A DNA stretch of 64,000 bases from an uncultured Sphingomonadaceae bacterium (GTDB lineage: Bacteria > Pseudomonadota > Alphaproteobacteria > Sphingomonadales > Sphingomonadaceae), in the NCBI GenBank assembly GCA_937995515.1, contig CALKJZ010000003.1, forward strand, positions 1 to 64,000. The letters run 5' to 3'. Of this stretch, positions 2,245-40,349 are shown in pieces (within the stretch, counting starts at the first letter, position 1; the number at the start of each line of letters is the position of its first letter). The notes under the pieces were generated by a model, which saw only the letters and a program-made list of their open reading frames with translations, searched no databases and was not told the origin of the DNA. The position numbers and the translations under genes were made by a program.

Positions 2245-3108
2245 ATGCCGGGCCCAGCATGCGTGAGCCGATTTGCGCCCTCCCCCACCGGGCGGCTGCA
2301 CCTTGGCCACGCCTTTTCCGCGCTTCTGGCACACGATCTTGCCCGCCGTTCCGGCGGCCAGTTCGTGCTCAGGATCGAGGATATCGACCGCGGGCGGTGC
2401 CGGGAGCCGTTCGTTTCCGGCATCCTCGCCGATCTTGCATGGCTGGGCCTTGGCTGGGACCGTCTCGAGCGGCAGGCGCAGGGCGCGGCCCGGCACGAGG
2501 CCGCGCTTGCCCGGCTGGAGGCGATGGGGCTTGCCTACCCCTGTTTCTGCACCCGGGCCGACATTGCCGCGGCCGCCGGGGCGCCGCACGGCGCGCCGGT
2601 CATCTACCCCGGAACCTGCCGCGGCCTGCCGCCTGCCGAGGCCCGGGCGCGCGCGGCGGCCATGCCGCACGCCGTGCGGCTGGACGTGGCGCGGGCTGCG
2701 GCGATCGCCGGCCCGCTTGCCTGGCACGATGCCGGGGCCGGCACCGTCAGGGCGCAGCCCGAGATGCTCGGCGACATCGTGCTGGCGCGCAGGGATTTCG
2801 GGGTTGGCTACATGCTCGCCTCGGCGGTGGACGATGCCGAGGCCGGGGTGACCGACGTGGTGCGCGGGCGCGACCTGTTCGCGGCCACCCATGTGCAGCG
2901 GCTCCTGCAGGCGCTGCTCGGCCTTGCCACGCCCCGATATCACCACCACCGGCTTCTGCTGGCGGCCGACGGCCGGCGGCTCGCCAAGCGCGACCGGGCC
3001 GAGACACTGGAGGTGCTGCGCGCGCGCGGGCTCGCCGGCGCGGCAGTGGCCGCACGGCTGCGCGGCATCCCCGCCCTCGGGCCGGACTGCCACATCGCCT
3101 TCACCTGA
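2245..3108 (+). CDS. gluQ: Glutamyl-Q tRNA(Asp) synthetase
   Basis: The 287-residue protein is a truncated glutamyl-tRNA synthetase paralogue that has the catalytic domain but no anticodon-binding domain. It attaches glutamate to the queuosine base at position 34 of tRNA-Asp. The sequence shows RFAPSPTGRLHLGH (HIGH motif) at the N-terminus, RIEDID, a CFC...Y...C zinc-site pattern around residues 98-125 and LAKRD (KMSKS-like) near residue 250. The ATG at 2245 was chosen because AGGAAGAGG lies about five bases upstream. The longer frame begins with non-family sequence. It is monocistronic, with 169 bases of apparently empty sequence before the next gene. A predicted queuosine-precursor-type transporter lies about 30 kb away in the same window. 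Confidence 0.93.
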   Translation: MPGPACVSRFAPSPTGRLHLGHAFSALLAHDLARRSGGQFVLRIEDIDRGRCREPFVSGILADLAWLGLGWDRLERQAQGAARHEAALARLEAMGLAYPCFCTRADIAAAAGAPHGAPVIYPGTCRGLPPAEARARAAAMPHAVRLDVARAAAIAGPLAWHDAGAGTVRAQPEMLGDIVLARRDFGVGYMLASAVDDAEAGVTDVVRGRDLFAATHVQRLLQALLGLATPRYHHHRLLLAADGRRLAKRDRAETLEVLRARGLAGAAVAARLRGIPALGPDCHIAFT

Positions 3109-28983: not shown

Positions 28984-29754
28984 TCAGGCTGCAGCGGCCC
29001 TGCGGAGCATCACGCCGGCCAGATGGGCGCGATAGTCGGCATCGGCGTGCAGGTCGGCGGCGAGATCGGGATGGTCGAGCGCCTCGGGCAGCGGGCCGCC
29101 CGCTGCGAGCGCTGCCTCGGCGGCCTGCCAGCGGACGACGCCGGTGGTGGCGCCCGTGACGGCGACGCGCACTGCGTCGGCAAAGCGCGCAACGGCGACG
29201 CCCGCGAGCGCGTAGCGCGAGGCCGGATGGGGGAACTTCGCATAGGCAAAGCGATCGGGCAGGCGCAGGCCGATCCGGGTGATGAGTTCGCCATCGGCGA
29301 GAGCGGTTGCGAACATGCCCTGGAAGAAATCGTCGGCCGCGTGCGTGCCGCGGCTGGTCTCGACGATGCCATCGAGCGCGAGCAGTGCGGCCGGATAGTC
29401 GGCGGCCGGGTCGTTGTTGGCAACCGAGCCGCCGATGGTGCCGCGCGCGCGCACCTGCGGGTCGCCGATCCCGGCCGCAAGGCGCGCAAGGCCGGGGATC
29501 GCGCTGCGGACGACGGGCGAGCCGGCCACTCCGGCGTGGCGCGCCATGGCGCCGATCCACAGCCGGTCGGACTCGACGCCGATGGCGGCAAGCCCCGGCA
29601 CGCTGCCGAGGTCGATCAGCCGCTCGACCGCGCGCAGGCCCGACTTCATCGCCGGGATGAGCGTGTGGCCACCGGCGAGGAAGGCGGCATCGCCGCGGAA
29701 GGCGGCCGTCGCCTCGGCGACCGAGGCCGGGCGGATGAGCTCAAAGGGCTGCAT
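28984..29754 (-). CDS. Molybdenum hydroxylase FAD-binding (medium) subunit, CoxM-like
   Basis: A 256-residue subunit that carries electrons from the iron-sulfur subunit to an acceptor through FAD. FLAGGHTLIPAMKSGL (residues 27-42) and TIGGSVANNDPAADYPAALLALDG (around residue 105) are the two FAD-binding signatures. The C-terminal CO_deh_flav_C part is shortish but present. The start at 29754 lies inside the end of the iron-sulfur subunit gene (14-base overlap), so the two are coupled. The large molybdopterin subunit expected in such clusters is absent on both sides. Downstream is a pseudogene. Confidence 0.9.
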   Translation of the reverse strand: MQPFELIRPASVAEATAAFRGDAAFLAGGHTLIPAMKSGLRAVERLIDLGSVPGLAAIGVESDRLWIGAMARHAGVAGSPVVRSAIPGLARLAAGIGDPQVRARGTIGGSVANNDPAADYPAALLALDGIVETSRGTHAADDFFQGMFATALADGELITRIGLRLPDRFAYAKFPHPASRYALAGVAVARFADAVRVAVTGATTGVVRWQAAEAALAAGGPLPEALDHPDLAADLHADADYRAHLAGVMLRRAAAA

Positions 29755-30244
29755 CGGCAGTCTCCGCAATCAGGCCGGCTGCGGCCATGGCGCGCGCGCC
29801 CGCGCGGATGGCGGCAACGATGTTCTGGTAGCCGGTGCAGCGGCACAGATTGCCTTCGAGCTCGTGGCGGACCGTCTCTGCCGACACATCCGGCCCGTGG
29901 CGCATGGCAATGCCGATGCCTGCCATCACCATGCCGGGCGTGCAGAAGCCGCACTGGAGGCCATGTGCCGCGCGGAACGCCTCCTGCATGGGGTGAAGCT
30001 GGCCGTCGGCCCCGGCGAGACCCTCGATGGTGGTGACCTCGTGCCCTTCCGCCTGCGCGACGAGCAGGGTGCAGGCCTTCACCGGCACGCCATCGAGCAG
30101 GATGTTGCACGCGCCGCACTGGCTGGTGTTGCAGCCGATGTGGGTGCCGGTCAGCCCGAGGCCGTCGCGCAGCCACGCAACCATCAGCGTGTGCGGCAGG
30201 ACGTCGGCCGCGCGCGGCTGTCCATTCACGATCACCTCTGGCAT
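29741..30244 (-). CDS. Molybdenum hydroxylase (2Fe-2S) small subunit, CoxS-like
   Basis: A 167-residue protein with two [2Fe-2S] sites. The plant-type site is GCNTSQCGACNILLDG plus a later Cys (KACTLL). The second is QCGFCTPGM with NLCRCTGYQNI. This is the small subunit of xanthine dehydrogenase, CO dehydrogenase and related hydroxylases, and it is full length. It is followed by the FAD subunit with a coupled start. No molybdopterin subunit is in the window, so the partner must be encoded elsewhere or has been lost. A moaB gene for molybdenum-cofactor synthesis lies at 62 kb. Confidence 0.92.
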   Translation of the reverse strand: MPEVIVNGQPRAADVLPHTLMVAWLRDGLGLTGTHIGCNTSQCGACNILLDGVPVKACTLLVAQAEGHEVTTIEGLAGADGQLHPMQEAFRAAHGLQCGFCTPGMVMAGIGIAMRHGPDVSAETVRHELEGNLCRCTGYQNIVAAIRAGARAMAAAGLIAETADAAL

Positions 30245-30975: not shown

Positions 30976-31218
30976 TCAGGCGGCAAGGCCAAGCGCCGCC
31001 TTGTAGGTCTCAAGCAGCGCCTCCTGCTCGGCGCGGGCGCTGGCATCCATCCGCCGCAGCCGCACGATCGCGCGCATCGTCTTCACATCATAGCCGGTGG
31101 CGCGGGCCTCGGAATAGACGCCCCTGATCTCGTCCATGAGGGTGCGCTTTTCCTCCTCGAGCGTCTCGATGCGCTCGATGAACTGGCGCAGCTGCTCGGA
31201 TGTCACATTGGCGGTCAT
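30976..31218 (-). CDS. gapR: GapR/DUF2312 nucleoid-associated protein
   Basis: An 80-residue, strongly helical protein of the DUF2312 (UPF0335) family. It starts MTANVTSEQLRQFIERIETLEEEKRTLMDEIR and carries the conserved EARATGYDVKTMRAIVRLRRMD core. In Caulobacter the family member GapR binds overtwisted DNA ahead of replication and transcription and supports topoisomerase action. The family is restricted largely to alphaproteobacteria, which supports the taxonomic call. Its promoter must lie in the 95-base gap shared with the divergent MATE gene. Confidence 0.92.
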   Translation of the reverse strand: MTANVTSEQLRQFIERIETLEEEKRTLMDEIRGVYSEARATGYDVKTMRAIVRLRRMDASARAEQEALLETYKAALGLAA

Positions 31219-31313: not shown

Positions 31314-32705
31314 GTGAACCCGCCCCGCCCTGCCCCCGGCCTCGGCGCCCCCGATGGCACCCTGCGCGAGCTCTGGCACCTTGCCGGCCCGGTGATGGGC
31401 TCGCGGCTCGGCATCATGGCCATGGGGCTGACGGACGCCATTGTCGTTGGCCAGTATTCGGCCGAGGAACTGGGCTTCCACGCGCTTGGCTGGGCGCCGA
31501 CGGGGACGGTGCTGGTGGCGGGCATCGGGCTTCTGGCCGGCGTGCAGGTGATGACGGCGCGGCACCTCGGCGCGGGCGCGCCGGAGCAGACGGGCGCGGT
31601 GCTGCGGCGCGGCATCGTCTATGCCTTCTGGCTGGGGATCGCCTTTACCGCGCTCATCTGGATTGGAGGCCCGCCGGCGATGCCGCTTCTGGGCCTCGAG
31701 CCTGCGCTGGTGGCGGGCGCGACCGCCGTGATGCTGATCTTCGCGCTTTCGATGACACCCTATCTCGTCGCCGATGCGATGATCTTCTGGCTGGAGGCGC
31801 ACGGGCGCGCCGCCTGGCCGCTGTGGGCGATGTGGGCCGCCAACGGGGTCAACCTGCTGCTCGATCTCTGGATGGTGCCCGGCCATTCGCCCTTCGGGGT
31901 GGATGGCGCACAGGCCGCGGCCTGGGCAACGCTCGGCAGCCGTACCGCGCTGCTGCTGCTTCTGGCCGCGATGGTGCTGCGCTGGGACGGCGCGCGGGCC
32001 TGGGGCGTGTTCCGCCGGGCGCCGCGAGACCCGCGCGCGGGCGCCGAGCAGCGCCGGATCGGCTATGCCTCGGGCGTCTCCTATGCAATCGAGGCCGGGG
32101 CCTTTTCCGCGCTTTCGATCGTGGCGGCGCTGGCCGGGACGCTGGCGGTGGCGGCCTGGGCGGTGGTCATCAATGTTGCCGCCATCGTGTTCATGCTGCC
32201 GATGGGCCTTGCGACCGCAACGGCCGTGTTCGTCGCGCGCTCGGTGGGCGCGGGCGATGCCGGCGCCATGGTGCGCGCCTTCCGGCTGGGGATGGCAAAC
32301 ACGGTTGCGGTGCTGCTCCTCGTCTCGCTGCTGATGGCGATTGGCGCCGACGGAGTGGCACGCGCCTATACCGCCGACCCGCGCGTGCTGCCGGCGATCG
32401 CCGGGGCGCTGGTGCTTTCCTCGCTGTTCTTCGTGGCCGACGGGATGCAGGCGGTTGCGGCCGCGGCGCTGCGCGCGCGCGGCGACATCTGGTGGCCGAC
32501 CGCGATGCACGTGGCAAGCTATGCCGTGCTGATGCTGCCGCTTGCCCATGTGCTGGCGCACCTTCGGGGCCTGGGGCTTGACGGGATCGTCTGGGCCGTG
32601 ATCGTGGCGAGCCTCGTGTCTGCAACCGCGCTCACCGGCCGCTTCCTGTTGCTTGGCCGCCGCCTTCCCGGGCGGGCGGCGCTGGCCCGGGCAGGTGCCA
32701 CGTGA
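31314..32705 (+). CDS. MATE-family efflux transporter
   Basis: A 463-residue protein with about twelve hydrophobic segments in two halves. It starts at GTG 31314 after GTAGGAG. The N-terminal half has ELWHLAGPVMGSRLGIMAMGLTDAIVVGQ, the MATE family lead, and the second half repeats the pattern at SGVSYAIEAGAFSALSIVAAL. Such exporters use a sodium or proton gradient to expel cationic drugs or metabolites. The stop overlaps the next start (GTGA). It is first in a four-gene coupled operon whose other members suggest a small-molecule substrate rather than a general drug pump (inference). Confidence 0.92.
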   Translation: MNPPRPAPGLGAPDGTLRELWHLAGPVMGSRLGIMAMGLTDAIVVGQYSAEELGFHALGWAPTGTVLVAGIGLLAGVQVMTARHLGAGAPEQTGAVLRRGIVYAFWLGIAFTALIWIGGPPAMPLLGLEPALVAGATAVMLIFALSMTPYLVADAMIFWLEAHGRAAWPLWAMWAANGVNLLLDLWMVPGHSPFGVDGAQAAAWATLGSRTALLLLLAAMVLRWDGARAWGVFRRAPRDPRAGAEQRRIGYASGVSYAIEAGAFSALSIVAALAGTLAVAAWAVVINVAAIVFMLPMGLATATAVFVARSVGAGDAGAMVRAFRLGMANTVAVLLLVSLLMAIGADGVARAYTADPRVLPAIAGALVLSSLFFVADGMQAVAAAALRARGDIWWPTAMHVASYAVLMLPLAHVLAHLRGLGLDGIVWAVIVASLVSATALTGRFLLLGRRLPGRAALARAGAT

Positions 32706-33370
32706 ACGGGCCGCCGCTGCCGCCGCCGCTTGCCGCCGCTGCGGCCACGGGCATCCCGCGCTCGCTGCAGGCCTATGCGGTGCTCTATGGCGGGCTTCTC
32801 GTGGTGGCGGGCGTGCTCGGGTTCAAGCTGGTGAAGCTGGGGCCGCTTGCGGTGCCGGGCGGGGTGTTTGCCTTCCTCCTCGCCATCGTGACCATCAATG
32901 CCACCGCCGAGCTGCACGGGCGGGGTGTCGCCCAGCGCATGGTGCTGATGGGCTATGTGCCGATGACGGTTGCGATCCTCCTGATGCAGCTGGTGCTGGC
33001 ACTGCCCGGGGCCGACGGCTGGGGCGGGCAGGCGGCGGCCGAGGCCGTGTTCGGCGCCTCCAGCCGGCTGATTGTCGCCGGCATGGTGGCCTATGGCATT
33101 TCGCAGACGCTCGACGTCACGATCTTCACCTGGATGCGCGGCCAGCCAGGCGGGCAGATGCTGTGGTTCCGGGCCACGGTTGCGGCCGTGATCGCGCAGA
33201 CGGTGGATACCATCATCTTCGTGACGATCGGGTTTTTCGGCCTTTATCCGCTGCTGCCGGTGATCGGCGGGCAGCTTGCGGCCAAGGCGGTCATCTGGGT
33301 GCTGGCGGTGCCGCTCCTCTACCTTGTGGTGGGCGCTGGCCGCCGGCTCGACGGGCGGGGCATGCGCTGA
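32702..33370 (+). CDS. VUT-family transporter (queuosine-precursor type)
   Basis: A 222-residue inner-membrane protein with six or so hydrophobic segments, matching the vitamin-uptake-like/YhhQ (COG1738) pattern. The marks are LLVVAGVLGFKLVKLG, the ATAELHGRGVAQRMV motif after the third segment, SQTLDVTIFTWMR, and the TVDTIIFVTIGF stretch. Family members import 7-deazapurine queuosine precursors in other bacteria. Starts at GTG 32702 overlapping the MATE stop and ends in a TGATG overlap with the first deacetylase gene. The presence of gluQ in the window shows that queuosine-modified tRNA is used by this organism. Confidence 0.85.
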   Translation: MNGPPLPPPLAAAAATGIPRSLQAYAVLYGGLLVVAGVLGFKLVKLGPLAVPGGVFAFLLAIVTINATAELHGRGVAQRMVLMGYVPMTVAILLMQLVLALPGADGWGGQAAAEAVFGASSRLIVAGMVAYGISQTLDVTIFTWMRGQPGGQMLWFRATVAAVIAQTVDTIIFVTIGFFGLYPLLPVIGGQLAAKAVIWVLAVPLLYLVVGAGRRLDGRGMR

Positions 33371-34257
33371 TGGACGATCCGGACCTCTATGCCTACCGGC
33401 CGTGGCGGGAGCGCGCGCCGCTCCGCTGGCCGGGGGGCGCCACCTGCGCGGTGTGGGTGGCGCCCAATCTCGAATATTACGAGCTCGACCCGCCGCCCCA
33501 CCCCAAGAGGCGGGCGTGGGCGCGGCCGCACCCGGACGTCGTCGGCTTCGGCCACCGCGACCATGGCAACCGCGTGGGCCACTGGCGGATGGCCGAGGCG
33601 ATGAGCGCGTTCGGCTTTCCCGGCTCCGTCTCGCTGTCGGTGGCGCTCTGCCAGCACCACCCGGAGATCGTGGCCGATGCGGCCGCGCGCGGCTGGGAGT
33701 TCTTCTCCCACGGGATCACCAACACCCGCTATGCCTACGACATGAGCCCCGACCAGGAGCGGGCGATCATCCGCGATTCGGTGGAGACGGTGAAGGCGGC
33801 CACCGGCCAGACCATCCGCGGCTGGCTGGCGCCTGCGCTCACCCATACCGTCAACACCATGGACCTGCTGGCCGAGGCCGGCCTCGCCTACACCTGCGAC
33901 CTCTACCACGACGACCAGCCGACCTGGGTCTCAACCCGCAACGGCCCGCTCGTTGCGATCCCCTACAGCCTCGAGGTCAACGACCATTATGGCTTTTTCG
34001 TCTACAACATGAGCCCGCGCGCCTATGCCGAGACCCTGATCCGCCAGTATGAGCGGCTGGCAGCCGAGGGGGCGAGCGGAGGCACGGTGATGTGCATTCC
34101 GCTGCACGCCTATCTCATCGGGCAGGCGCACCGGATCGGCCCGTTCCGCGAGGTGCTGCGCCACATCGCCGCCGACGGCCGCGCCTGGATCGCGCGCGCG
34201 GGCGAGATTGTCGATCAGTTCCGCGCGCAGGTGCCGCCGCCGGAGACGCGCCCATGA
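33370..34257 (+). CDS. Polysaccharide deacetylase/PuuE-like hydrolase 1
   Basis: A 295-residue NodB-fold protein of the PuuE-like subgroup. After YRPWRERAPLRWPGGATCAVWV it has FGHRDHGNRVGHWRMAEAM, EFFSHGITNTRYAYDMS and PALTHTVNTMDLLAEAGLAY, with the metal-site His residues in the SHG and later CIPLHAYLIGQAHR parts. Cytoplasmic, as no signal peptide is seen. Members of this subgroup hydrolyse cyclic amides such as allantoin as well as acetylated sugars. It overlaps the transporter gene by one base and the second hydrolase by four, so they are made together. Confidence 0.85.
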   Translation: MDDPDLYAYRPWRERAPLRWPGGATCAVWVAPNLEYYELDPPPHPKRRAWARPHPDVVGFGHRDHGNRVGHWRMAEAMSAFGFPGSVSLSVALCQHHPEIVADAAARGWEFFSHGITNTRYAYDMSPDQERAIIRDSVETVKAATGQTIRGWLAPALTHTVNTMDLLAEAGLAYTCDLYHDDQPTWVSTRNGPLVAIPYSLEVNDHYGFFVYNMSPRAYAETLIRQYERLAAEGASGGTVMCIPLHAYLIGQAHRIGPFREVLRHIAADGRAWIARAGEIVDQFRAQVPPPETRP

Positions 34258-35174
34258 CCCTCGATCCCTCCTATCTCGAATATCCGCGCCGCAGGCTCGG
34301 CTATGATCACGACCTCTACGACTGGTCGAACATCCACGCGCGTGGGCCCGTTGCGTGGCCGGGCGGCGCGAAGGTGGCGGTCTGGCCGTGCATCGTCGCC
34401 GAGTTCTTCCCGCTCACCCCCGCCGACCGGCCGTTCCGCGCGCCCGGGCACATGCAGACGGCCTTTCCCGATTACCGGCACTACACGGCGCGCGACTATG
34501 GCAACCGGGTTGGCATCTTCCGGCTGCTCGACGCGCTGGAGGCGCGCGGGATCCGCGGCTCGGTGGCGATGAACGTGGCGGTGGCCGAACGCGCCCCGGC
34601 GCTCCTGGCTGCGGTGCGGGCGGGCGGGCACGAGATCGTGGCCCATGCCACCGACATGAACGGGGCGATCGACTCCAGCCTTCCGGCCGAGGAGGAGGAG
34701 GCCATCATTGCGGGCACGCGCGCGCGCTGGCAGGCGCTCGGCGAGGAGCCCCGGGGGTGGCTTTCGGTTGCGCGCTCGCAGAGCTGGCGCACCGCCGATC
34801 TCCTCCTCGCCCACGGCTTTGCCTGGATGGCGGACTGGCCGAACGACGACCTGCCCTACCGCTGGCGCAACGGCATCATCAACCTGCCTCTGAACCACGA
34901 GCTTTCCGACCGGCAGATCATCAACGTGACACAGGCGGGCAGTGACAGCTGGGCCGAGCAGATCGGCGATGCGGCCGCCTGGCTCGCCGACGAGGCGGCG
35001 CGGCAGGGCGCAGGCCGGCTGCTGCCCCTTCAGCTCACCCCCTACATCATCGGCCTGCCCTACCGCGTGGGCGCGCTCGAGCGCCTGCTCGACCTGCTCC
35101 GTTCGCGCGGCGACTGCTGGTTCGCAGCCGGTGGCGCGATTGTAGCCGAATGGGCGCGCCAGCAGCCCGGCTGA
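34254..35174 (+). CDS. Polysaccharide deacetylase/PuuE-like hydrolase 2
   Basis: A 306-residue paralogue of the gene before it, with the same layout: VAWPGGAKVAVWPCIVAEFF, YTARDYGNRVGIFRLLDALE, EIVAHATDMNGAIDSS, SVARSQSWRTADLLLAHGFAWMADW and a final LQLTPYIIGLPYRVGALERLLD. The acidic and His residues of the NodB metal site differ in places from copy 1 (AHA for SHG; TPYIIGLPYR for LHAYLIGQAHR), so the two may form a hetero-oligomer or have different substrates. It ends the coupled operon and converges on the exported repeat-protein gene with a three-base gap. Confidence 0.85.
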   Translation: MTLDPSYLEYPRRRLGYDHDLYDWSNIHARGPVAWPGGAKVAVWPCIVAEFFPLTPADRPFRAPGHMQTAFPDYRHYTARDYGNRVGIFRLLDALEARGIRGSVAMNVAVAERAPALLAAVRAGGHEIVAHATDMNGAIDSSLPAEEEEAIIAGTRARWQALGEEPRGWLSVARSQSWRTADLLLAHGFAWMADWPNDDLPYRWRNGIINLPLNHELSDRQIINVTQAGSDSWAEQIGDAAAWLADEAARQGAGRLLPLQLTPYIIGLPYRVGALERLLDLLRSRGDCWFAAGGAIVAEWARQQPG

Positions 35175-35177
35175 GCC

Positions 35178-35957
35178 TCAGCCAAGCTGGCCGAGCGGCG
35201 AGCGGCGGGCGGCCTCGCGCCGCGCGGCGGCCACGTCGCCCTGGCGCAGCAGCGGCAGGACGGCGCGGGCCTGGGCCTGCACCAGCCGCTCGAACCCGTC
35301 GGCGGCGCGCGCCCGGTCGGCGCGCTCGAGCAGCGCCTCGGCGCGCCGCGCATTGCCGGGATCGAGCGCCAGCGCGGTAAACGCGAAGAAGGTGGGGATG
35401 ACGGGGCCAGGCGGATCAAGCGCCATGGCCTGCCCGAACGACGCCTCGAAGCCCTGCCGGCTGGCGCCGAGCGCGGTGCCGGCGACCAGCCGTCCAAGCG
35501 TCGCCACCGCCTCGCCGTGCCAGCCGCCGAGCGCGGCGTGGGCAAGCGCATTTTGCGGGTCGCGCGCGATGGCGGCTTCGAACGCGCGCCGCGCTTCGCG
35601 CGCAAGGCCCGGCGAGTTCCTGAGCTTGGCGCGGTAGCCGGTGGCGATGGCGCGCTGCAGCCGCGCCTCGGTATTGCCGGGCTCGAGCGCAAGCGCGCGG
35701 TCGAAGAAGGCCTCGGCCCGTTCCAGGAGCGCCTCGGCGCGGGCACGGTCGCGCGCGGCCCAGGCGGCCTCGGTCGAGGCGGCGCGGCCTGCGGCAATGA
35801 GCGCGGCCGCGCCTGCTGCGCCCTCGCCGGCGGCGACCGCCTCGGCAAAGCGGCCCTGTGCAAACAGCGCCCCGGCATCGGCCGCGTGCGCTTCCGGTGC
35901 GGCAACGACGAGGCCAAGGAGCGCGCCGGGGATGAGCCGGGCCTTCATCCCCCGCAT
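35178..35957 (-). CDS. Exported TPR-like protein of unknown function
   Basis: A 259-residue protein with a signal peptide (residues 1-25, ending EAHA). A helical, Ala-rich body follows with repeat-like stretches AEAFFDRALALEPGNTEARLQRAIA, ARRAFEAAIARDPQNALAHAALG and FFAFTALALDPGNARRAEALLERA, spaced like tetratricopeptide repeats. TPR proteins are scaffolds, and no partner can be named. The ATG at 35957 shares its A with the lysK stop (TGATG). A second ATG at 35948 is also possible. Translationally coupled to lysK, but the functional link is unclear. Confidence 0.78.
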   Translation of the reverse strand: MRGMKARLIPGALLGLVVAAPEAHAADAGALFAQGRFAEAVAAGEGAAGAAALIAAGRAASTEAAWAARDRARAEALLERAEAFFDRALALEPGNTEARLQRAIATGYRAKLRNSPGLAREARRAFEAAIARDPQNALAHAALGGWHGEAVATLGRLVAGTALGASRQGFEASFGQAMALDPPGPVIPTFFAFTALALDPGNARRAEALLERADRARAADGFERLVQAQARAVLPLLRQGDVAAARREAARRSPLGQLG

Positions 35958-37567
35958 CAGGCGGGCTCTGCCTCGAGCGCGGAGGCAATCAACGAGCGGG
36001 TTTCGGCAATGCCGAACAGCGCGATGAAACTGCCCATGCGCGGCCCCTCGGAGGTGCCGAGCAGCACCTCGTAGAGCGCCTGGAACCAGGCCCTGAGCGG
36101 CTGGAAGCCGTGACGCTTGCCGATCTCGTAGATCTCGAACTGGATGGCTTCGGCATCCGCGTCCGGGTGGGCGCAGAGCCAGCGGTCGAGCTCGGCGATG
36201 GCGGCGCGCTCGCGCGCGTCGGGGGCGCGGCGGCGGAGCATGGGCGCGACATGGTCGCGGTGGAAGGCGAGCGCATTGTCGAGCATCCGGGCCAGCCGCG
36301 GGTCGGAATCCGGGTCGACCCCGGGGGCGTGGCGGCGGATGCTCGAGGCGAGCACGCGGTGATCCACCGGCCCGAGGCCGGAGACGAGATTGAGGAGCAT
36401 GGCATAGGAGACAGGCGGAGGCGGGGGCGGGCGACCACCGTGGACATGGAAGGCCGGGTTGCCCAGCCGCTCCCTTGCCGGCTGGGTGGCAAAGGCGGCG
36501 CAGAACCGCTCATAATCCTCCATCGCGCGCGGGATCACGCCAAGATGCAGCTTCTTGGCCGCGCGGGGCTGCTGGAACATGTAGAGCGCGAGGCTTTCCG
36601 GCGGGGCATAGGCCAGCCATTCCTCGACGGTGAGGCCATTGCCCCTCGTCTTGGAGATCTTGCCGCCCGCCTCGTCGAGGAACAGCTCGTAGGTGAACCC
36701 CTCGGGCGGGCGGCCGCCAAGGATGCGCGCGATCCGTGAGGAAAGGGTGACCGAGTCGATGAGGTCCTTGCCCGCCATCTCGTAATCGACCCCCAGCGCC
36801 ACCCAGCGCATCGCCCAGTCCACCTTCCACTGGCACTTGGCGTGGCCGCCGGTGACCGGGGTCACCCGCGTCTCGCCGGTCTCCGGATCCTTCCACGCGA
36901 TCGTGCCGGCGGCCACGTCGCGGTCGAGGATCGGCACCTGCAGCACCCGCCCGGTGCGCGGGCACAGCGGCAGGAAGGGGGCGTAGGTCGCGCGGCGCTC
37001 GGGCCCGAGCGTGGGCAGCACCACCTCGATCACCTCGTCGTAGTGGGCAAGCACGGCAAGGAGGGTGGTGTCGAACCGGCCGGAGCGGTAGCATTCAGTG
37101 GCCGAGAGGAACGCATAGTCGAAGCCGAAGCGGTCGAGGAATGCCATCAGGCGCGCATTGTTGTGCGCGCCGAAGCTCGCGTGGGTTCCAAACGGGTCGG
37201 GAACGGCGGTGAGCGGCCGGTCGAGGTGCGCTGCCAGCACTTCCTGCCGGGGCAGGCCGGGCGGCACCTTGCGCATCCCGTCCATATCGTCGGAAAAGGC
37301 GACAAGGCGGGTGGGAACCCCGGGGCAGAGCAGCTCGAAGGCGCGCCGGACCATGGTCGTGCGCACGACCTCGCCGAAGGTGCCGATGTGCGGCAGGCCG
37401 GAAGGGCCGTAGCCGGTCTCGAACAGGATGCCCGCCTCGGGAAAGCCCCCGGGGTAGCGCGCGATGAGCTTGCGCGCTTCCTCGAACGGCCAGGCCCTGC
37501 TTTCTTGCGCGGCTTCCCGAAGCTCGCGAAGCTCGGCGTCGGAGAAGGAGGCAAGGCCCGTTTCCAT
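35957..37567 (-). CDS. lysK: Lysyl-tRNA synthetase, class I
   Basis: A 536-residue class I enzyme, the form found in archaea and in many alphaproteobacteria instead of the usual class II LysRS. The HIGH region reads GYGPSGLPHIGTFGEVVRTT (around residue 55) and the KMSKS region KISKTRGNG (around residue 285). RLVAFSDDMDGMRKVP and the helical C-terminal anticodon-binding part complete the family pattern. The start at 37567 fits the normal N-terminus (METGLASFSD). The frame stays open far upstream only because stops are rare in this DNA. The start codon overlaps that of the divergent helicase gene. Confidence 0.94.
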   Translation of the reverse strand: METGLASFSDAELRELREAAQESRAWPFEEARKLIARYPGGFPEAGILFETGYGPSGLPHIGTFGEVVRTTMVRRAFELLCPGVPTRLVAFSDDMDGMRKVPPGLPRQEVLAAHLDRPLTAVPDPFGTHASFGAHNNARLMAFLDRFGFDYAFLSATECYRSGRFDTTLLAVLAHYDEVIEVVLPTLGPERRATYAPFLPLCPRTGRVLQVPILDRDVAAGTIAWKDPETGETRVTPVTGGHAKCQWKVDWAMRWVALGVDYEMAGKDLIDSVTLSSRIARILGGRPPEGFTYELFLDEAGGKISKTRGNGLTVEEWLAYAPPESLALYMFQQPRAAKKLHLGVIPRAMEDYERFCAAFATQPARERLGNPAFHVHGGRPPPPPPVSYAMLLNLVSGLGPVDHRVLASSIRRHAPGVDPDSDPRLARMLDNALAFHRDHVAPMLRRRAPDARERAAIAELDRWLCAHPDADAEAIQFEIYEIGKRHGFQPLRAWFQALYEVLLGTSEGPRMGSFIALFGIAETRSLIASALEAEPA

Positions 37568-40349
37568 GGACGACAGATTGCCCAGACCCGCGCTGGTGGC
37601 AAGCCATGCGGGCATATGGCAGACCGACGCGGCCGGTCGCGTCGTGGCGATGGGGCCGGCCGAGGCGGCAGCCGCCGCGGCCGACACGCCGCACCTGATG
37701 CTGAATGCGGCCCTCCTTGCTGCGCGGCTGGGCGTGCCGCGCCTGACCGGGCTCGATCTGCTCGAGCTGTTCGCCTTCGTGGCGCCGGCGCGCTTCATCG
37801 TGCCCTCGGCGGCCGGGCTTGCCGGATGGCTCGGCCTCGACGCGCCCGAGGGAGATGCCGCGGCCGGCCCCTTCCTGCAGCGCGCCGCCTGGGCCCTGCT
37901 GGCGGCCATGGCCGCGCCCGGCTGGCCCTTGGAGGGTGCGCACGAGAGTGCGCGCGCGCTGCAGCGGGCCGGCTGGGTGTGGGCGCCCTTCGTCCTTGCC
38001 CGGCTTGGCCCGCCCGCGCGGCCGGCGCCGAGCCTGTTCGATGCCCTGCCGCGCCACGAGGAGGCGCCGCCGCGGCCTGCGCCACGCGCCTTGGCCATCG
38101 AGCCCGAGACGGTGCGCGCCGAGCTGCGGCGGATGCGCGGGCACGCGCGGCCTGCCCGCCCCGCGCAGGAGGCCTATGCGCTGGCCGCCGCCCACGCCTT
38201 CCAGCCGCGCGAAACCCGCAACGGCCCCAACCTCGTGATCGCCGAGGCCGGCACCGGCACCGGCAAGACGCTTGGCTATCTTGCGCCGGCCGTGGCCCAT
38301 GCGCGGCAGACCGGCGGCCAGGTGTGGCTTTCGACCTTCACCCGCGCGCTGCAGCGGCAGCTGCGCGCCGAGACCCGCGTGAGCCTTGCCGACCTCGAGG
38401 CCGTGGGCGCGATCGTGGTGCGCAAGGGGCGGGAGAATTATCTCTGCCTCCTCAACCTCGAGGATGCCATGCAGGGCGCCTTTGCCGGGCAGGCGGCGGT
38501 GTTCGCCCAGCTGGTCGCGCGCTGGGCGCGCCATACCGAAGATGGCGACATGGTGGGCGGCGACCTGCCGGGCTGGCTCCCCGGCCTGTTCCGCCGCACC
38601 GGTGCGCTCCCGGCGCTCACCGACCGGCGCGGCGAGTGCATCCGCGCGGCCTGCCCGCACTGGCGCTGCTGCTTCATCGAGCGCAGCGTGGCGGCATCGG
38701 GCCGCGCCGACCTCGTGATTGCCAACCACGCGCTGGTGATGGCGAGCTTCGCGCGCGGCGAGGCGCAGACGCCGCCCCGGCTGGTGTTCGACGAGGGCCA
38801 TCACCTGTTCGATGCCGCCGATTCGGCCTTTTCGGTGGCGCTGACCGGCGCGGAGGCGATCGAGATGCGGCGCTGGTTCCTGGGGCCGGAGGGCGGGCGC
38901 CAGCGGCGCGGCGGGCGCCGGCGCGGGCTTGCGGCGCGGCTGATGGACATGGGCAGCCAGGAGGAGCAGGGCCGGCAGGCGCTGGAGGCGGTGCTCGCCG
39001 CCGCGCGGGCGCTCCCCGGCGAGGGCTGGCTCGACCGGCTCTGCGCAGACGAGCCCGAAGGGCCGGTCGAGCAGCTGCTCGCACGGCTGCGCGCGCAGGT
39101 GCTGACCCGCGCCGGGGGCGAGGCGCACGGCTATTCGCTGGAGGCGACGCTGGCCGATCCGCTGCCCGGGCTGGTGGAGGCGGCGGGCCAGGCCGGCCAT
39201 GCGCTCGATCGGCTGTCGCGGGCCGCGGAGGCGCTGCGCCGGGTGCTGGCGCGGCTTGCGCTCGAGCCGCCCGGCTGGCTCGACCAGCCGGGTCTCGCGC
39301 GCCTCGAGGCGGCCGATGCCGGGCTTGCGCTGCGCATCGACCAGCTGGCGGCGTGGCGGGCGATGCTGGCGCGGCTGGGCGGCCCGCCAGACCCGGAGTT
39401 CGTGGACTGGGCGGGCGTGGTGCGCAGCGACGGGCGGGAGCTCGATGCCGGGCTGTTCCGCCATTGGCTCGACCCGATGAAGCCGCTTGCCGCCGCGGTG
39501 CTTGCGCGCGCGCACGGCGTGCTGGTGACATCTGCCACCCTCGGCGACCCGAACGATCCTTGCGGCGCGGGCGAGGCCGGGCCGGCTGTACGTCGCGGGG
39601 AGGGAGGCGGGGAGGGCGGCGGGGAGGGCGGTGCACGGGCCGCAATGGCGGCGGCCGCGGGTGCGCCGCACCTCGCCGTTGTGCCGCACATCGTGCGCGT
39701 GCCAAGCCCGTTCGACCATGGGCGCGCGGCGCGGATCTTCATTGCAACCGATGTCGAGCGGCGCGACCTCGCCGCCCTCGCCCATGCCCATGCGGTGCTG
39801 ATCGAGGCCTCGGGCGGCGGCGCGCTGTGCCTCTTTACCGCGATCGCGCGGCTGCGCGAGGTCCATGCCCGGATCGCCGACCGGCTTGCCCGCAGCGGCC
39901 TGCCGCTGTTCGCCCAGCACGTGGACCCGATGGACACGGGCACCCTTGTCGACCATTTCCGCGCCGATCCGCACGCCTCGCTGATGGGCACCGACGCGCT
40001 GCGCGACGGGGTGGACGTGCCCGGCGACTCGCTCAGGCTCATCCTGTTCGAGGGCGTGCCCTGGTCGCGCCCGACGATCCTCGAGACGGCGCGGCGCGCG
40101 GCTTGCGGCGGCCCGGCGCACGAGGACCGAATGGTGCGGCGGCGGCTCGCCCAGGCCTATGGGCGGCTGATCCGCCACGAGGCGGACCGGGGCGTGTTCG
40201 TGCTGCTGGGGCGGCAGGTGCCCTCGCGGCTGCTTTCGGCCTTTCCGCCGGGCGTGCCCATCGCGCGCGCCCCGCTTGCCGAGGTGGCCGAGGCCACCGC
40301 CGCGTTCCTTGCGCGCGAGGGCATTGCCCCCCGGGCGTCGGCCGTTTAG
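37566..40349 (+). CDS. DinG-family ATP-dependent DNA helicase
   Basis: A 927-residue superfamily 2 helicase of the XPD/DinG type (COG1199). Walker A is IAEAGTGTGKTLGYL (about residue 228). The Walker B/DEAH box is LVFDEGHHLFDAAD. Cys residues at YLCLL and CIRAACPHWRCC lie where the [4Fe-4S] cluster of the family sits. The C-terminal motifs include MGTDALRDGVDVPGDSLRLI and LAQAYGRLIRHEADRGVFVLLG (Q-x-x-GR-x-IR). Residues ~677-690 carry a Gly/Glu repeat insert. The N-terminal ~190 residues (ADTPHLMLNAALLAARLG, LDLLELFAFV) are also seen in sphingomonad homologues, as I recall. It probably unwinds 5'-tailed DNA during repair. Confidence 0.92.
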   Translation: MDDRLPRPALVASHAGIWQTDAAGRVVAMGPAEAAAAAADTPHLMLNAALLAARLGVPRLTGLDLLELFAFVAPARFIVPSAAGLAGWLGLDAPEGDAAAGPFLQRAAWALLAAMAAPGWPLEGAHESARALQRAGWVWAPFVLARLGPPARPAPSLFDALPRHEEAPPRPAPRALAIEPETVRAELRRMRGHARPARPAQEAYALAAAHAFQPRETRNGPNLVIAEAGTGTGKTLGYLAPAVAHARQTGGQVWLSTFTRALQRQLRAETRVSLADLEAVGAIVVRKGRENYLCLLNLEDAMQGAFAGQAAVFAQLVARWARHTEDGDMVGGDLPGWLPGLFRRTGALPALTDRRGECIRAACPHWRCCFIERSVAASGRADLVIANHALVMASFARGEAQTPPRLVFDEGHHLFDAADSAFSVALTGAEAIEMRRWFLGPEGGRQRRGGRRRGLAARLMDMGSQEEQGRQALEAVLAAARALPGEGWLDRLCADEPEGPVEQLLARLRAQVLTRAGGEAHGYSLEATLADPLPGLVEAAGQAGHALDRLSRAAEALRRVLARLALEPPGWLDQPGLARLEAADAGLALRIDQLAAWRAMLARLGGPPDPEFVDWAGVVRSDGRELDAGLFRHWLDPMKPLAAAVLARAHGVLVTSATLGDPNDPCGAGEAGPAVRRGEGGGEGGGEGGARAAMAAAAGAPHLAVVPHIVRVPSPFDHGRAARIFIATDVERRDLAALAHAHAVLIEASGGGALCLFTAIARLREVHARIADRLARSGLPLFAQHVDPMDTGTLVDHFRADPHASLMGTDALRDGVDVPGDSLRLILFEGVPWSRPTILETARRAACGGPAHEDRMVRRRLAQAYGRLIRHEADRGVFVLLGRQVPSRLLSAFPPGVPIARAPLAEVAEATAAFLAREGIAPRASAV
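39596..39628 (+). repeat. G-rich 12-base tandem repeat in the helicase gene
   Basis: CGGGGAGGG occurs at 39596, 39608 and 39620 with a 12-base period, encoding a GEGG repeat. It gives at least six runs of three or more G within 33 bases, a pattern able to form a G-quadruplex on the coding strand. Confidence 0.8.

Follow-up and report, generated by a model that had tools for sequence, protein, structure and literature searches.

The last two genes of a four-gene run encode H1 and H2, two PuuE-like hydrolases, in a 64,000-nucleotide stretch of DNA (hereafter the window) from contig C3 of an uncultured Sphingomonadaceae bacterium, whose genome (G000) comprises 2.42 Mb over 31 contigs. The run opens with a MATE efflux transporter and a VUT transporter (COG1738/QPTR) and closes with H1 and H2, the successive genes overlapping by 4 (MATE/VUT), 1 (VUT/H1) and 4 (H1/H2) bases, as a first-pass annotation made from the letters alone had stated and as re-reading of the sequence bore out. 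That annotation combined all four genes into one pathway for purine- or deazapurine-like rings. Our analysis upholds its view of the hydrolases as a true paralogous, tightly coupled pair of PuuE-type ring-opening candidates and suggests a different context for them. With moderate confidence we propose that H1 and H2 are two chains of a PuuE-type ring-opening hydrolase in a catabolic pathway for nitrogen heterocycles, in which they act with an isochorismatase-family cysteine amidase (AMD), LeuCD-type and CaiB-type enzymes and an HMG-CoA-lyase-like enzyme (HMGL).

Genomic linkage and co-occurrence of the H1-H2 pair

H2 is present in 73 of the 397 genomes of the family that were sampled (E-value ≤ 1e-40). 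We read 71 of the 73 loci over ~8-10 kb on either side or to the end of the contig (those of G109 and G158 and a second copy in G260 were left out), counting partner genes by tblastn with E-value ≤ 1e-10. Among named contigs, the closest relatives of H2 come from Sandarakinorhabdus, Thermaurantiacus and other Sphingomonadales, and more distant ones from contigs labelled Rhodospirillaceae and Marinimicrobia (11 loci). H1 lies immediately upstream of H2 in all 71 family loci. AMD is found near the pair in 62 of them, and in 61 of these 62 it directly precedes H1 on the same strand. The other partners are HMGL (58 of 71 loci), LeuC (57), LeuD (56) and the CaiB CoA-transferase (56), followed by ABH (46), an aldehyde dehydrogenase-type gene (ALDH, 42) and a methyltransferase (42). 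In five loci (L058, L059, L166, L178 and L182) H2 is directly followed by LeuC-LeuD and a gene of the isocitrate-lyase/PEP-mutase (ICL) type; in four of the five this is a second LeuCD. Plasmids of Sphingomonadales, Rhodospirillales, Rhodobacterales and Burkholderiales carry the AMD-H1-H2 core too. LeuCD, CaiB and HMGL accompany it in Sphingobium TomTYG65, in Sphingomonas JE1 and in Acidiphilium multivorum; in Burkholderia plantarii, Salipiger abyssi and Comamonas endophytica the partners are different or fewer.

The genes also co-occur where they are not neighbours. Orthologues of H2 (E-value below 1e-80) were detected in 16 of 59 relatives, spanning five families, and orthologues of AMD (E-value below 1e-100, the next best match being 4.4e-31) in exactly the same 16, a coincidence with a chance of 1/C(59,16) = 9e-15 if kinship is ignored. 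CaiB (E-value below 1e-140; next best 9e-69) is present in these 16 relatives and in G002 and G048, as is LeuC at an identity of at least 59%, with only a fragment in G026 and G036. In the window genome AMD is located on C9, beside ABH, a DUF gene and a VOC-like gene, CaiB and HMGL form a divergent pair on C24, and LeuCD is on C2. The best explanation is that in this species the pathway genes have been dispersed over four loci, with H1-H2 now standing behind an unrelated MATE-VUT couple. That the genes are retained although no longer linked is the strongest evidence for a single pathway.

Two further clusters of the window genome contain related enzymes. One (L092, contig C8, 5984-12263) comprises genes for a PuuE-like protein, an arylmalonate-decarboxylase-like protein, a flavin monooxygenase, a methyltransferase and an FAD oxidase; comparable clusters of G034, G031 and G025 include, in addition, a gene of the isocitrate-lyase type. 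The other (L100, contig C10, 2838-10165) carries a caprolactamase-alpha-like gene (532.7 bits, cut-off 1000), for which a candidate B-type partner is probably present, adjoining HMGL-, CaiB- and isochorismatase-like genes. The make-up of L100 suggests a putative pathway of similar logic with a different ring opener.

Fold, active site and ancestry of H1 and H2

Both proteins score far below the cut-off of the PuuE model TIGR03212 (H1: 117.3 bits; H2: 82.4 bits; cut-off: 424.6 bits). Their AlphaFold2 models (pLDDT 85.8 and 87.9, respectively) exhibit a NodB-like fold of the PuuE type, and Foldseek reported the PuuE allantoinase 3cl6 and 1z7a, a protein closely related to it, as the best PDB matches of both (H1: 1z7a, E-value 1.8e-18; 3cl6, E-value 4.5e-18; H2: 1z7a, E-value 8.0e-19). 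PuuE relatives include allantoinase and cyclic imidases. H1 shares with PuuE, at aligned places, a Glu and two His residues, the first and the C-terminal one. PuuE differs in that it is a single protein, whereas the two H paralogues always occur together; identity in the fold alignments is 23-26%, and no ureide context was recognised here. Another member of the same branch, HpPgdA (HP0310, 3qbu), is described in the part of its report that we consulted as a tetramer whose site, small and concealed, binds a metal via Asp14, His86 and His90 and includes His247 (PMC3084791). In H1 the places of D14, H86 and H90 are taken by E, H and N.

For the residue counts, H1 sequences were recovered from 81 of 93 loci and H2 sequences from 92, with both available for 80 loci; loci lost to the filter on start choice and length do not enter the counts. 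Rows more than 97% alike were removed, leaving 75 H1 and 88 H2 sequences (H1 numbering is used throughout). N33, E35, H114, N118 and H246 are each invariant in H1 (75/75), H246 being the counterpart of His247 of HpPgdA. H2 retains the equivalents of E35 (88/88), H114 (83/88) and N118 (80/88), is variable at N33, and at the C-terminal His has T in 81 sequences (including that of the window), H in 3 and S or V in 4. Thus, the first-pass annotation was right that the two hydrolases differ at metal-site positions; beyond that, the Asp-His-His metal triad of CE4 deacetylases is absent from both. Two more distant PuuE-like groups from these genomes retain the N and the E as well as both His residues, the first and the C-terminal (7/7 sequences).

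In a midpoint-rooted tree of 55 rows, H1 and H2 each form a single clade (support 100/99), with a few long H2 branches; the split between them therefore predates their spread. In 79 of 79 loci H1 shows higher identity with its window counterpart than H2 does. A 4-base overlap between the two genes was counted in 56 of 80 loci, among them near-duplicates of a single genome, the starts used being those closest to that of the window gene. We infer that H1 is the predicted catalytic chain and H2 its diverged partner, most simply in one heteromer, and that the hydrolase is probably metal-independent.

Partner enzymes and the proposed pathway

AMD exhibits an intact D43-K136-C169 triad in all 81 sequences obtained from 84 loci (one sequence is of the AMD2 type). 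We take Asp-Lys-Cys to be the triad of the cysteine amidases of the isochorismatase superfamily; AMD should therefore hydrolyse an amide. Its named matches, RutB and biuret amidohydrolase, are weak. LeuC surpasses the cut-off of TIGR00170 (573.1 versus 560.25 bits) and HMGL that of the HMG-CoA lyase model PRK05692 (283.5 versus 246 bits), each score being that of one cluster member from outside the window genome. Enzymes of the LeuCD type act as hydratases on alkyl-maleates, transferases of the CaiB type serve to activate dicarboxylates, and HMG-CoA lyase cleaves a 3-hydroxy-acyl-CoA bearing a tertiary alcohol. The conserved partners thus point to a dicarboxylic acid, and leave the purine or deazapurine substrate of the first-pass annotation unsupported.

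Put together, these activities would give a route in series. H1/H2 would open a cyclic imide or amide to a half-amide, from which AMD would free ammonia to yield a dicarboxylate; LeuCD would hydrate this acid, if it resembles an alkyl-maleate, to an alkyl-malate; CaiB would attach CoA to the alkyl-malate; and the HMG-CoA-lyase-like enzyme would cleave the CoA ester, releasing a 2-oxo acid together with an acyl-CoA. Turning imides into half-amides is the reaction of cyclic imide hydrolase (EC 3.5.2.16). As a guess, the substrate could be a substituted maleimide. The gene set with its linkage and co-occurrence, the predicted folds and the residues are observations, on which the reactions and their sequence, the heteromer and the class of substrate are proposed. 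We speculate, in full awareness that the complete proposition is rather improbable, that H1-H2, AMD, LeuCD, CaiB and HMGL make up an aerobic pathway, so far undescribed, for substituted maleimides, arising for example from the oxidative breakdown of chlorophyll, haem or bilins, in which a heteromeric imidase has a conserved pseudo-enzyme as one of its chains.

For the ICL-type triplet that follows H2 in five loci, a parallel exists in the nicotinate fermentation of Eubacterium barkeri, in which dimethylmaleate hydratase (DmdAB) acts with 2,3-dimethylmalate lyase. The triplet would likewise combine a LeuCD-type hydratase with a subsequent lyase of the ICL/PEP-mutase type; the difference is that most H1-H2 loci have CaiB and HMGL instead. 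The closest parallel to the first two steps is the nicotinate pathway of Aspergillus nidulans, where, according to the part of the report that we consulted, a PuuE/HpPgdA-like ring opener, the imidase HxnM, acts before the amidase HxnN, which hydrolyses an amide with release of ammonia, in an order supported by deletion mutants and metabolites (PMC9304392). HxnM/HxnN and the imidase of P. putida YZ-26 cited there, likened here by the logic of their described reactions, differ in having a single imidase and another amidase and other downstream steps.

Several observations weigh against a single pathway of this kind. The CaiB representative falls well below the cut-off for succinate-glutarate CoA-transferase (214.7 versus 750 bits) and the ICL-type representatives below that for methylisocitrate lyase (293.8 and 252.6 versus 354.4 bits), and enzymes of the HMGL, CaiB and LeuCD types have many substrates. 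AMD is missing from the vicinity of the pair in 9 of the 71 loci (the window, G001, G003, G004, G026, L133, L134, L188 and L192); it is encoded elsewhere in the genome in the window species, G001, G003, G004 and G026, the genomes among these that the search for it covered. G002 and G048 carry CaiB and LeuC without H1-H2, and G031, which lacks the pair, has LeuC at 57% identity, so that the limit used for LeuC is partly arbitrary. The search for HMGL covered 6 genomes, compared with the 59 relatives searched for H2, AMD, CaiB and LeuC. On the Salipiger plasmid AMD-H1-H2 lies among amidase and hydantoinase genes, without LeuCD, CaiB or HMGL, and on an Agrobacterium plasmid H1-H2 is accompanied by an amidase and transporters, with neither an adjoining AMD nor LeuCD, CaiB or HMGL. 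The clusters also contain genes that we cannot place in the scheme (methyltransferase, ABH, VOC, nitrilase-like, FAD oxidase). As to the heteromer, a gap of 763 bases separates H1 from H2 in two loci, and H2, which retains the Glu and usually the His, may be active in another way.

The MATE and VUT genes and their surroundings

The first-pass identification of the two transporters holds: MATE matches PF01554 (MatE; 2e-35) and exceeds the cut-off of TIGR00797 (153.1 versus 147.4 bits), and VUT matches PF02592 (Vut_1; 2.4e-35) and exceeds that of TIGR00697, "queuosine precursor transporter" (114.4 versus 50.95 bits). The same annotation correctly placed molybdenum (Mo) hydroxylase subunits and GluQ in the window (Table 1).

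Table 1. Coordinates of the four-gene run and of other features of the window
Feature	Positions	Strand	Remarks
MATE efflux transporter gene	31314-32705	+	GTG start; re-read from sequence
VUT (COG1738/QPTR) transporter gene	32702-33370	+	GTG start; re-read from sequence
H1, PuuE-like hydrolase gene	33370-34257	+	ATG start; re-read from sequence
H2, paralogous PuuE-like gene	34254-35174	+	ATG start; re-read from sequence
GapR-like gene, start of divergent block	30976-31218	-	PF10073, 1e-32
Mo-hydroxylase FAD and FeS subunits	28984-30244	opposite to MATE-VUT-H1-H2	family matches; ~1 kb away
GluQ	2245-3108		family match

MATE and VUT adjoin H1-H2 in one of the 71 family loci, namely the window itself, and the four-gene operon was not found beyond the window species in any locus read. 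In G001, G003 and G004, which belong to the same genus, the pair lies elsewhere, with neither MATE nor VUT alongside. A MATE-VUT couple occurs also in G016 and G026, from two other genera, on contigs different from those of their H1-H2 loci, and a VUT of the window type, at 39-52% identity, is found in 21 other genomes of the family, 16 of which lack H1-H2. In G001 (L206) the MATE orthologue stands next to GapR, a GST gene and two Mo-hydroxylase subunits, as in the window, and forms with them an independent block without VUT, H1 or H2; the Mo-hydroxylase, which had been tied to the hydrolases, therefore belongs to the MATE side. Altogether, MATE is probably an unrelated neighbour of H1-H2, and the juxtaposition of MATE-VUT with the pair in the window species looks like one of chance. 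No large Mo-hydroxylase subunit was recognised near the FAD and FeS subunits.

The window VUT more likely imports queuosine precursors, outside the hydrolase pathway. Proteins of COG1738/QPTR salvage such precursors, according to the part of the literature consulted (PMC11130926). Among the queuosine genes covered in the window genome (QueC, TGT and GluQ), no QueC was found above the cut-off (best score 25.4 bits, cut-off 150.3) while TGT (C14:120989) and GluQ are kept, and this is the reason for the proposed salvage role; G001, G003 and G004 have QueC above the cut-off. A caveat is that relatives with QueC (e.g. G005, G006 and G008) also carry both VUT types. The window VUT passes TIGR00697 but lies far under the YhhQ model NF008406 (40.2 bits, cut-off 252), and it is an extra copy besides a canonical paralogue on C27. 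A search of the window and of four further loci for Rfam riboswitches (e.g. preQ1) returned tRNAs only. Another PuuE-like gene is found near QueC and what we take to be a QueE-like gene in G001 and G003 (L201, 7477-10186; L202, 2526-5239); the window genome retains this PuuE-like gene (L093), but QueC was not found there.

In the window and at other loci, genes other than the named features were called by a simple codon-usage procedure (L049, L050 and L052 were analysed by tblastn, and L055 has no gene calls). Between 27727 and 28984 of the window the caller gave no intact gene; the minus-strand frames there presumably represent fragments of a broken gene of the AMP-ligase/acyltransferase type, to judge from their motifs. 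A lysyl-tRNA synthetase gene (35957-37615), which also matches the archaeal-type LysS model, faces H2 near its end, with one TPR-like gene in between. Overlaps of 1-4 bases are frequent among co-directional neighbours in the window (10 of 42 pairs by our own gene calls; 7 of 39 outside the run), so short overlaps by themselves do not establish one pathway, even if three in succession are unusual (Fisher p 0.01 in a test picked post hoc).

Alternative interpretations

A six-membered ring, such as glutarimide or a dihydroxypyridine tautomer like citrazinate, opened towards an aconitate- or glutaconate-like acid in place of an alkyl-maleate, is unlikely. In its favour, LeuCD is placed within the aconitase superfamily, and flavin monooxygenase genes occur near 6 of the 71 clusters, as they do close to the related PuuE3 clusters. 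HxnM itself opens 3-hydroxypiperidine-2,6-dione, as stated in the part of the report consulted (PMC9304392). Against such a ring speak the LeuC-LeuD-ICL triplets, with their possible parallel to dimethylmaleate hydratase and dimethylmalate lyase.

We regard as distinctly unlikely that H1/H2 act on a ureide ring of the hydantoin, allantoin or dihydropyrimidine type, with AMD as an N-carbamoyl amidohydrolase. The top named matches fit this idea (PuuE allantoinase for H1/H2 and, weakly, RutB and biuret amidohydrolase for AMD), but the PuuE scores are far too low, LeuCD, CaiB and HMGL would be unnecessary for ureides, and no urate or ureide genes were recognised among those neighbours that were named or scanned. 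The purine route was rejected for the low PuuE scores and the lack of recognised ureide genes.

Very improbable is the single four-gene pathway, in which VUT would import a purine- or deazapurine-like ring, H1/H2 would open it and MATE would export the product. The overlapping genes are presumably co-transcribed, and relatives of VUT transport 7-deazapurines (TIGR00697; PMC11130926, consulted in part), but same-genus genomes have the pair alone, MATE-VUT is coupled elsewhere apart from it, and the conserved partners of H1-H2 concern dicarboxylic acids. The four-gene unit was rejected, as MATE and VUT stand alongside the pair in the window only. Finally, the automatic label of polysaccharide or peptidoglycan deacetylase, which the match of H1 to Polysacc_deac_1 (1.3e-8) might seem to favour, can practically be dismissed in view of the missing metal triad, the catabolic neighbours and a fold search that ranks PuuE, its unassigned relatives and HpPgdA above every CE4 esterase.

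Significance of the H1-H2 module

The first-pass annotation knew of no described system with the composition of the run. This stands for H1-H2 with its conserved partners, of which we found no description in the open-access papers searched; the four-gene composition is not supported as one pathway. For the catabolism of haematinic acid or maleimides, no bacterial pathway was apparent in the titles and abstract openings of the matches listed; the part consulted of the Sphingobium paper in mBio (PMC10653915) contains neither the term "polysaccharide deacetylase" nor "isochorismatase", and pJE1 and JZ-6 gave no match in the open-access literature. We infer that the ring-opening pair and its partners constitute a widely kept catabolic module with an active and an altered hydrolase, not found described in the open-access papers searched. 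With H2 in 73 of the 397 family genomes and the AMD-H1-H2 core on plasmids of other orders, "polysaccharide deacetylase" labels hide a catabolic module. Identification of the substrate would correct this mis-annotation and give a function to a translationally coupled pair of an enzyme and its altered partner, and it may reveal how sphingomonads use nitrogen-ring compounds.

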